Shown here piece after piece: positions 3,995 to 5,542 of a stretch of 64,000 nt of DNA (position 1 is its first letter; each line of letters starts with the position of its first letter). Where the stretch lies: contig NZ_CP099546.1 in NCBI RefSeq assembly GCF_023973145.1, positions 2,232,001 to 2,296,000 of the forward strand, written 5' to 3'. This stretch comes from Natronosalvus vescus (GTDB taxonomy: Archaea; Halobacteriota; Halobacteria; Halobacteriales; Natrialbaceae). The position numbers and the translations under genes were made by a program. A model generated the notes under the pieces. The model saw only the letters and a program-made list of their open reading frames with translations. It had not been told where the DNA came from and searched no databases.

Positions 3995-4209
3995 GTCGAT
4001 CTCTCCAGGGTACCCGTTGGCCGTTCCTGGTAGTGGATCAGTTGTCGTCCGAACGATCCTCGACGCTCGAGCGTCGGGCCCGTGCTGACGGAGGCCGTCG
4101 AGACTGTGCTGACGGAGGCCGTCGAGACTGTGCTGACGGAGGCCGTCGAGACTGTGCTGACGGAGGCCGCCGAGCGAGTGACGGCTACCGACCGTTTAGC
4201 GTCCTCCAT
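3991..4209 (-). CDS. Possible repeat-encoded small ORF upstream of the mgtE pair
   Basis: An open frame of about 72 codons whose middle is built by a 24-bp tandem repeat, giving an 8-residue Ser/Thr/Val/Ala repeat. It overlaps the end of the 54-residue ORF upstream by 14 bp and touches the first mgtE start with an ATGA overlap. That arrangement looks like an operon member, but the peptide has no family resemblance, and the repeat alone keeps several frames open. It may equally be a non-coding leader of the mgtE mRNA. Confidence 0.25.
   Translation of the reverse strand: MEDAKRSVAVTRSAASVSTVSTASVSTVSTASVSTVSTASVSTGPTLERRGSFGRQLIHYQERPTGTLERST
4083..4170. repeat. 24-bp tandem repeat, 3.7 copies
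   Basis: Three exact 24-nt units (4083-4106, 4107-4130, 4131-4154) are followed by a 16-nt partial fourth unit that diverges after 4169. On the plus strand each unit begins tgctgacggaggccgtcgag. Because the length is a multiple of three, copy-number change would not shift a reading frame crossing it. Confidence 0.95.
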
Positions 4210-4519: not shown

Positions 4520-4912
4520 TCACATCGCGAGCAGCAACCACGCCACTCCGATCCCCGCGAGTGCGCCGAGGAGGTTGGCGATGGCGTTCAAAACAGCGAC
4601 TCCACGCTGGCCGCGTTCCCACCGCTGTACCGTCTCGACGGAGAACGTCGAGAACGTCGTGAACGCACCGCAGGCGCCGATGCCGAGCAGTTGGACGGTC
4701 GATTCACCCGCGCCGCCGAACACCAGGAGGGCAAAGAGGGTACTTCCCAGGACGTTCACGAGCAGCGTCGCCAGTGGAAACGAGTCCGTCGAGAGCCGTG
4801 TGTACACGATGTGACGAGCGATTGCGCCAATTGCGCCGCCCGTCCCGACGAGGTGGGCCGGCTCGAGAGCCAACCCGGCTGCGATCGAAAGGAAGTCGAG
4901 ACCCGCGATCAC
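4520..4912 (-). CDS. crcB: Fluoride channel CrcB/Fluc, second subunit
   Basis: A 130-residue, four-helix fluoride-specific channel subunit that lets F- leave the cell. Family marks are GTGGAIGAIARHIVY near residue 24, the VNVLGS motif, and GACGAFTTFSTF, which carries the full Phe-box. Its ATG overlaps the stop of the first crcB by four bases (4909-4912), so the pair is co-translated. Paired crcB genes usually encode subunits fixed in opposite orientation that form an antiparallel heterodimer; that is family knowledge applied here. Confidence 0.95.
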   Translation of the reverse strand: MIAGLDFLSIAAGLALEPAHLVGTGGAIGAIARHIVYTRLSTDSFPLATLLVNVLGSTLFALLVFGGAGESTVQLLGIGACGAFTTFSTFSVETVQRWERGQRGVAVLNAIANLLGALAGIGVAWLLLAM

Positions 4913-5298
4913 GTTCGATCACCCCTGAGGCGGCGAGCGACGGTTCGACCGACGAGGACGCCACCGAAACCGAGCGCGTAGGTGCCGAGAACGATGGCGC
5001 CGAATCCGGCGATACCGCCGGCAGTCGCAGATTGCAGTGCGAACCCGCTGTACGTCGTCAACGAGGAGAGAAAGCCCGTCGTGAACACGACCCGGGATTT
5101 TCGGTCGACGAGGCCGGTGTACTGGGCTTCGTAGACGAGAAAGCCGAGGACGGCACTCCCGAGGACGTTGACGACGAGCAGGGCGAGTTCGTCCGGGAGC
5201 AACCCGAGCGTGAAAAAGCGCAGGTTCGCCCCGGCGAACCCGCCGATTCCGATCAGGGCGAGCGTCTCGAGTCGGGGAACGATGGCTGTGTCGGACAT
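4909..5298 (-). CDS. crcB: Fluoride channel CrcB/Fluc, first subunit
   Basis: The start chosen is the ATG at 5298, giving 129 residues; the longer open frame would run through the riboswitch upstream. Four membrane helices, the GGFAGANLRF motif near residue 19 and the VNVLGSAVLGF motif identify CrcB. The Phe-box region reads TTYSGF instead of TTFSTF, so this subunit lacks two of the usual residues. It is the first gene of the crcB pair and lies 15 nt after the 3' arm of a predicted fluoride riboswitch. Confidence 0.93.
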   Translation of the reverse strand: MSDTAIVPRLETLALIGIGGFAGANLRFFTLGLLPDELALLVVNVLGSAVLGFLVYEAQYTGLVDRKSRVVFTTGFLSSLTTYSGFALQSATAGGIAGFGAIVLGTYALGFGGVLVGRTVARRLRGDRT

Positions 5299-5305
5299 GG
5301 CTGAC

Positions 5306-5378
5306 TGGTGGCAGGGACCGTCAGCCGGATCGAACCTCGACACACCGGCGGTTGGGTCAGGCGGGCCCCATCGCCCGA
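5306..5378 (-). promoter_or_regulatory. Fluoride riboswitch (crcB RNA motif)
   Basis: Read on the minus strand from 5376, the RNA begins GGGCGATGGGGCCCGCC, matching 16 of 17 positions of the aptamer core known from Thermotoga. Stem P1 pairs 5376-5372 with 5363-5359. The loop GGGGCC (5369-5364) pairs with GGTCCC (5319-5314), the defining pseudoknot, with one G-U. A second helix pairs GCCGG (5349-5345) with CCGGC (5328-5324), followed by the conserved CTGACGG. It ends about 15 nt before the crcB ATG, with no Shine-Dalgarno between. Fluoride binding should therefore switch on the exporter pair, by transcription or start-site access. Confidence 0.87.
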
Positions 5379-5542
5379 ATACACCCAGCTTTCGACTCGA
5401 GACCTATGAGAATTCCGACTGCGCCGTTTCACGTGGCAATGGATTACTACCGTGATGGACGTGCATGCGTACTGCTGGCCGAGGGCAGGCATGCGCCGCC
5501 TCGAGTAACAAGACTGAAGTTTAGACTCTATCTAAATCAGGT

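Follow-up and report, generated by a model that had tools for sequence, protein, structure and literature searches.

The references for the fluoride riboswitch, or crcB motif (RF01734), are Weinberg 2010 (PMC2864571) and Baker 2012. This aptamer class was already known, also from archaea, and had been linked to crcB genes (PMC2864571). In the transcriptional crcB riboswitch of Bacillus cereus, the 3´ part of the aptamer is also claimed by the expression platform, so that ligand binding and the OFF hairpin exclude each other; an intrinsic terminator followed by a U-tract acts as the OFF hairpin there (PMC11077080, PMC13273304). For archaea, a 2021 paper named only one experimentally determined natural riboswitch, from a thermophile (PMC8241225). 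The same paper cites a fluoride-responsive riboswitch of Thermococcus kodakarensis (Speed 2018), which, going by that citation, is presumed to be translational; its host is hyperthermophilic, and a consensus ribosome-binding sequence is found on about half of its mRNAs (PMC4247193). A synthetic theophylline riboswitch that masks the Shine-Dalgarno (SD) sequence and the AUG functions in Haloferax volcanii (PMC8241225), an organism in which 72% of the mRNAs are leaderless, as are most in haloarchaea, and structured leaders were deemed atypical for translational control (PMC4983044). Our search of the open-access literature found nothing on haloarchaeal fluoride riboswitches or on the platform proposed here. 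The aptamer family is thus a known one, and the expression platform reported here appears to be undescribed in the searchable open-access literature.

The locus lies in a stretch of 64,000 nucleotides from Natronosalvus vescus (Natrialbaceae), referred to here as the window. It comprises the following features, all on the minus strand:

5405-5414, minus strand: BRE/TATA-like promoter element AATTCTCATA, within the AT-rich block that aligned upstream regions share 30-39 nt ahead of P1
5305-5384, minus strand: fluoride riboswitch aptamer (RF01734), putatively fluoride binding, 33.8 bits, E = 6.5e-8, model positions 1-64 of 64
5360-5375, minus strand: P1 stem-loop GGCG-AUGGGGCC-CGCC (strands 5375-5372 and 5363-5360), its pairs intact in 98-100% of the 92 loci compared
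5324-5349, minus strand: P3, GCCGG/CCGGC (5349-5345 and 5328-5324), from the covariance model alignment, with a 16-nt apical extension at 5344-5329
5314-5319, minus strand: pseudoknot 3´ strand GGUCCC, pairing with 5369-5364, with compensatory changes across 92 loci
5299-5326, minus strand: proposed OFF hairpin, GGCUGACGGU (5326-5317) with ACC (5309-5307), bulged A5306 and GUCAGCC (5305-5299), -15.4 kcal/mol, examined in comparative tests
4909-5298, minus strand: crcB1, Fluc fluoride channel subunit, ATG start at 5298-5296 (PF02537, 49.7 bits, cut-off 32.9)
4520-4912, minus strand: crcB2, second Fluc subunit, GTG start (PF02537, 75.3 bits, cut-off 32.9)

The initial annotation had proposed a fluoride riboswitch ahead of a tandem crcB pair, and this proposal is supported by the covariance model, the gene context and conservation. 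The match to RF01734 at 5384-5305 was significant in a cmscan search of 301 bp, and in a search of the whole genome it was the sole strong match (E = 1.9e-7; the runner-up scored 14.5 bits). P1, the five-pair second helix (P3) and the six-pair pseudoknot GGGGCC/GGUCCC, which contains one G.U pair and has its 5´ strand in the P1 loop, are all present as had been described, and the distance from the last pseudoknot base (5314) to the crcB1 ATG is 15 nt, in agreement with the annotated spacing. The proposed likeness of the aptamer start to Thermotoga (16 of 17 bases) would agree with the T. petrophila sequence. The aptamer is located in sense orientation upstream of the two fluoride resistance genes, which both encode CrcB/Fluc proteins, and the closest named relatives, judged by CrcB1, are Natrialbaceae. 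The GTG start of crcB2 overlaps the stop of crcB1 (4 nt in all), so crcB2 is probably translationally coupled to crcB1.

Like the other members of the RF01734 family, the window copy matches the full-length model and has the conserved core and a fluoride channel gene downstream. It differs in the extended P3, in a C instead of a U after the conserved CUGA, and in an output located beside an SD-less AUG. Furthermore, its score stays 0.2 bit below the gathering cut-off of 34, since the P3 extension is an insert relative to the model. A search of RF01734 at the gathering threshold did not report the window copy, and automatic default annotation would thus miss this aptamer. The same holds for most copies in the Natrialbaceae, again because of P3 inserts: 34 passed the Rfam cut-off in a class-wide sample of 391 genomes, with only five genomes from this family. 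Direct reading of crcB1 leaders recovered 92 distinct aptamers (the window and 91 relatives), and a hand count found the aptamer in at least 63 of the 98 sampled Natrialbaceae genomes that have this crcB. Sub-threshold covariance model matches without a crcB gene (for example L105, L106, L110 and L114-L118) were dismissed as chance.

The extended second helix noted initially is real and is found throughout the lineage. Across the 92 haloarchaeal loci the P3 insert ranges from 7 to 180 nt while the base pairs are kept; the window has 16 nt, most other members of the family have 23-100 nt, and the Natrialba group (L119, L120, L122) reaches about 160-180 nt. In L120 (503-585, reverse orientation) P3 is swollen by a repeat array in which an 8-nt unit (GGCUGGUC-like) occurs about ten times, and L119 and L122 are similar. 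In the pseudoknot, one pair is G-C in 62, A-U in 18, G-U in 9 and C-G in 3 of the 92 loci, and another is C-G in 65 and U-A in 25. These compensatory changes argue for selection on the aptamer. Since P1 and the pseudoknot are retained in this way by 92 different copies from haloarchaea, the sequence at 5384-5305 is a real RF01734-type aptamer, with putative fluoride binding, and not a chance match.

When the upstream regions were aligned at P1, a single AT-rich block emerged at -39 to -30, with GC-rich sequence elsewhere (the AT fraction peaks at 0.67 over 5 nt, compared with a mean of 0.42 and an SD of 0.07). The usual distance from the archaeal TATA element to the transcription start is about 25 nt. 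Combining this spacing with the conserved element at 5414-5405, we predict a transcript start at about 5384-5378, at or just before the aptamer, and a crcB1 leader of about 80-90 nt that would carry the whole aptamer. The previous description of crcB1 as near-leaderless is contradicted by this promoter element. A leaderless crcB1 with a promoter of its own was likewise rejected: the bases about 26 nt before the ATG belong to the aptamer and are rich in GC, and the AT peak precedes the aptamer. The absence of an SD sequence, which had also been noted, is genuine and lineage-wide. In the window, neither GGAGG nor GGTGA was found near the crcB1 start, and the sole partial match, GAGGT, sits in the P3 loop. 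Occlusion of an SD sequence was therefore ruled out for the window.

How ligand binding could act without an SD sequence had been raised as a question, and a well-supported candidate answer is a hairpin that abuts the AUG and uses the aptamer's own 3´ strand. The segment adjoining the AUG, GUCAGCC (5305-5299), is perfectly complementary to GGCUGAC (5326-5320), which consists of the P3 3´ strand and core bases; the next three bases, GGU of the pseudoknot strand, pair with ACC beyond the single bulged A. The resulting hairpin has a z-score of -3.3 (2 of 200 shuffled sequences were equally stable), and in the pseudoknot-free fold of the leader it has a probability of about 1 and dominates the ensemble; folding energies apply to 1 M NaCl and 37 °C and ignore the pseudoknot. 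The folding energy of the whole leader is ordinary (z = -0.2), only the local hairpin stands out. Since it shares bases with P3, the pseudoknot and the fluoride core, the hairpin is mutually exclusive with all of them. In the window the helix stops short of the AUG, which is itself unpaired. Positions 5326-5299 can thus adopt a competing fold that takes in the start region and is incompatible with the aptamer, and this fold is conserved.

Evidence for this conservation comes from 75 distinct haloarchaeal leaders, in which the hairpin between the aptamer strand (the arm) and the bases before the AUG (the anti-arm) has a mean energy of -10.5 kcal/mol, compared with -5.9 kcal/mol (SD 0.26) when only the linker was shuffled. 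The lowest mean among the 100 shuffled sets was -6.6 kcal/mol, although these statistics overstate the significance, as the sequences are related by descent. The difference is seen with ACGGUCCC-type arms (-11.9 vs -6.6 kcal/mol shuffled) and with all other arms (-8.1 vs -4.6 kcal/mol shuffled). Conservation of the linker is limited to positions -1 to -5 before the AUG, which are exactly the anti-arm (in ACGGUCCC-type leaders 1.15-1.53 bits, and at most 0.5 beyond it). In addition, YAGYY directly precedes the AUG in 49 of the 75 aptamer-bearing leaders but in none of 30 aptamer-less crcB1 leaders from other families (Fisher p = 5e-11; the start-site controls were drawn from individual crcB loci). 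This count also led us to reject CAGCC as a general start context of crcB or of haloarchaeal genes. Among aptamer-less leaders of the same family the motif was found in 5 of 25, several of them with decayed aptamer remnants. A hairpin over the start site thus appears to be common to this species and dozens of its relatives. The SD-free hairpin rule is not universal among haloarchaeal leaders: the YAGYY anti-arm is absent from about a third of the aptamer-bearing ones, and a convincing hairpin was not found in some (L076, L086, L089, L109, L139).

Given this common descent and the constraint that the aptamer places on the arm, the shuffling, linker conservation and YAGYY tests point to selection on the anti-arm more than to covariation. 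Covariation is suggested by pairs with a changed arm or a shifted register, which are few cases. The arm GAUGAC faces GUCAUC in L055 and L056, whereas GACGAC faces GUCGUC in L081 of the same genus, and GGCUGAC/GUCAGCC of the window corresponds to GGCUGAU/AUCAGCC in L039. In L040, L041, L043 and L065 the helix includes the AUG (AUGACUC/GAGUCAU in L041 and L043, AUGGCU/AGCCAU in L065). Swapping arms and linkers between loci gave no discrimination because nearly all arms share GGCUG, and within the Natrialbaceae the support is mostly conservation opposite an invariant arm. The hairpin is also present in named relatives outside the test set (L226, L228, L229, L246), with the anti-arm located 5 nt before the AUG in L229. 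A separate observation concerns L072 (G212), in which a perfect 13-bp inverted repeat (ACCGGTGATCGCT...AGCGATCACCGGT) is located between the aptamer and CAGCC-AUG; it would bring the arm and anti-arm strands together, as if keeping the anti-arm near.

We consider it probable that the locus is a fluoride-ON riboswitch by which a fluoride exporter gene pair is switched on at the level of translation without an SD sequence. The aptamer, the gene pair, the promoter element and the mutually exclusive complementarity with its conservation are read directly from the sequence; that the RNA binds fluoride, in which direction it switches and that it controls translation are inferred. Transcription would begin at the aptamer or slightly upstream of it. 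As long as fluoride is absent, the 3´ half of the aptamer (P3 3´ strand, core and the beginning of the pseudoknot strand) would pair with ACC-a-GUCAGCC before the crcB1 AUG, and this strong hairpin abutting the start codon might hinder ribosome loading on the SD-less leader. Fluoride together with Mg2+, the cofactor of the fluoride aptamer, would stabilise P1, P3 and the pseudoknot, and since P3, the pseudoknot and the core need the same bases, the hairpin would be released. GUCAGCC and the AUG would then be single-stranded, crcB1 could be translated, and translation of crcB2 would follow via the start/stop overlap.

Control by transcription termination would be an alternative, since the terminators of transcriptional fluoride riboswitches in bacteria recruit this 3´ strand of the aptamer too, with an equal overlap geometry (PMC11077080, PMC13273304). 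The window shares with B. cereus the competition for this strand, but a U-run of five or more is absent between the aptamer and ATG+60 of crcB1 in all 92 loci, and the hairpin is fixed beside the AUG and not ahead of a U-tract. A terminator hairpin with a U-tract was thus found neither in the window nor in the 91 relatives, and intrinsic termination was rejected; we regard control by termination as unlikely. It is even less likely that CAGCC before the AUG is a site for a leader-binding protein or a nuclease affecting mRNA stability, with its complementarity to the aptamer being secondary. The pentamer is nearly invariant in the Natrialbaceae, and conservation alone cannot separate pairing from sequence recognition; however, pairing is kept in other families despite altered sequence and register (L039, L041, L055, L056, L065, L081), the GGU of the pseudoknot strand is paired in 52 of the 75 leaders although the linker varies there, and YAGYY is missing from the aptamer-less crcB1 leaders outside the family.

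That the aptamer is a relic or a constitutive leader structure that does not switch seems very improbable. Visibly decayed crcB1 leaders do exist in several Natrialbaceae (L144, L145, L147, L150), and the window score just below the Rfam cut-off would fit with decay, but the pairing elements of the window are all intact, the low score is explained by the P3 insert, and the compensatory pseudoknot changes across the family indicate selection.

The proposed fluoride-ON translational switch resembles the T. kodakarensis riboswitch, as far as that is described in the citing paper, in being archaeal and presumably translational. With the synthetic theophylline riboswitch E in H. volcanii (PMC8241225) it would share a masked start codon region in a haloarchaeon that is freed by the ligand, here predicted from the sequence; unlike that designed switch, which has an SD sequence in its platform, the window platform is natural and SD-less. 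In aptamers from non-halophilic Halobacteriota (L208 and L220, similarly L202) the pseudoknot strand UGACUCC appears to face an SD-containing GGAGUCA before the start codon. In both groups the aptamer 3´ strand would thus pair with the translation start region, but in haloarchaea it faces bases that adjoin the AUG and contain no SD sequence. Haloarchaea therefore seem to have kept the logic of the switch and moved its target to SD-free bases beside the AUG, judging from a few non-halophilic loci compared without statistics. On balance, we lean slightly towards an SD-independent translational platform that evolved in haloarchaea, in which the P3 3´ strand became the repressor of the AUG-touching bases; methanogen-side relatives would use the neighbouring pseudoknot strand against the SD sequence, and the switch would have been retargeted when SD-less leadered translation became usual. 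The long P3 of the Natrialbaceae may stay folded in both states, with only its base exchanging strands.

This family might serve as a compact and genetically tractable system for testing how initiation without an SD sequence is gated by a structured leader, and it could supply natural fluoride-inducible control parts for haloarchaea. It also suggests how riboswitches can work in cells that mostly lack the usual ribosome-binding signal, and it illustrates how an Rfam threshold can miss most copies in a lineage.

Several minor observations were made at these loci. In L043 (about 1054-1123) and L041 (G358:C36:89647-89716) the crcB aptamer is preceded, at a distance of about 400 nt, by a second fluoride aptamer. 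The ORF behind this second copy encodes a small membrane protein (68 aa in L043), its leader contains a GGAGG-like stretch, and it is possibly an unrecognised fluoride-responsive gene. In the window, a strong hairpin (CCCCGAC-cgaa-GTCGGGG, 4519-4500) follows directly 3´ of the crcB2 stop, with no U-run immediately after it, and is possibly a 3´-end element. Further downstream, a 24-bp tandem repeat (GTGCTGACGGAGGCCGTCGAGACT) in four near-perfect copies (4082-4174) separates the crcB pair from an mgtE-like gene pair, consisting of two adjacent genes for single-domain MgtE-family proteins (PF01769) at 3994-2844 on the minus strand, directly downstream of the crcB region.
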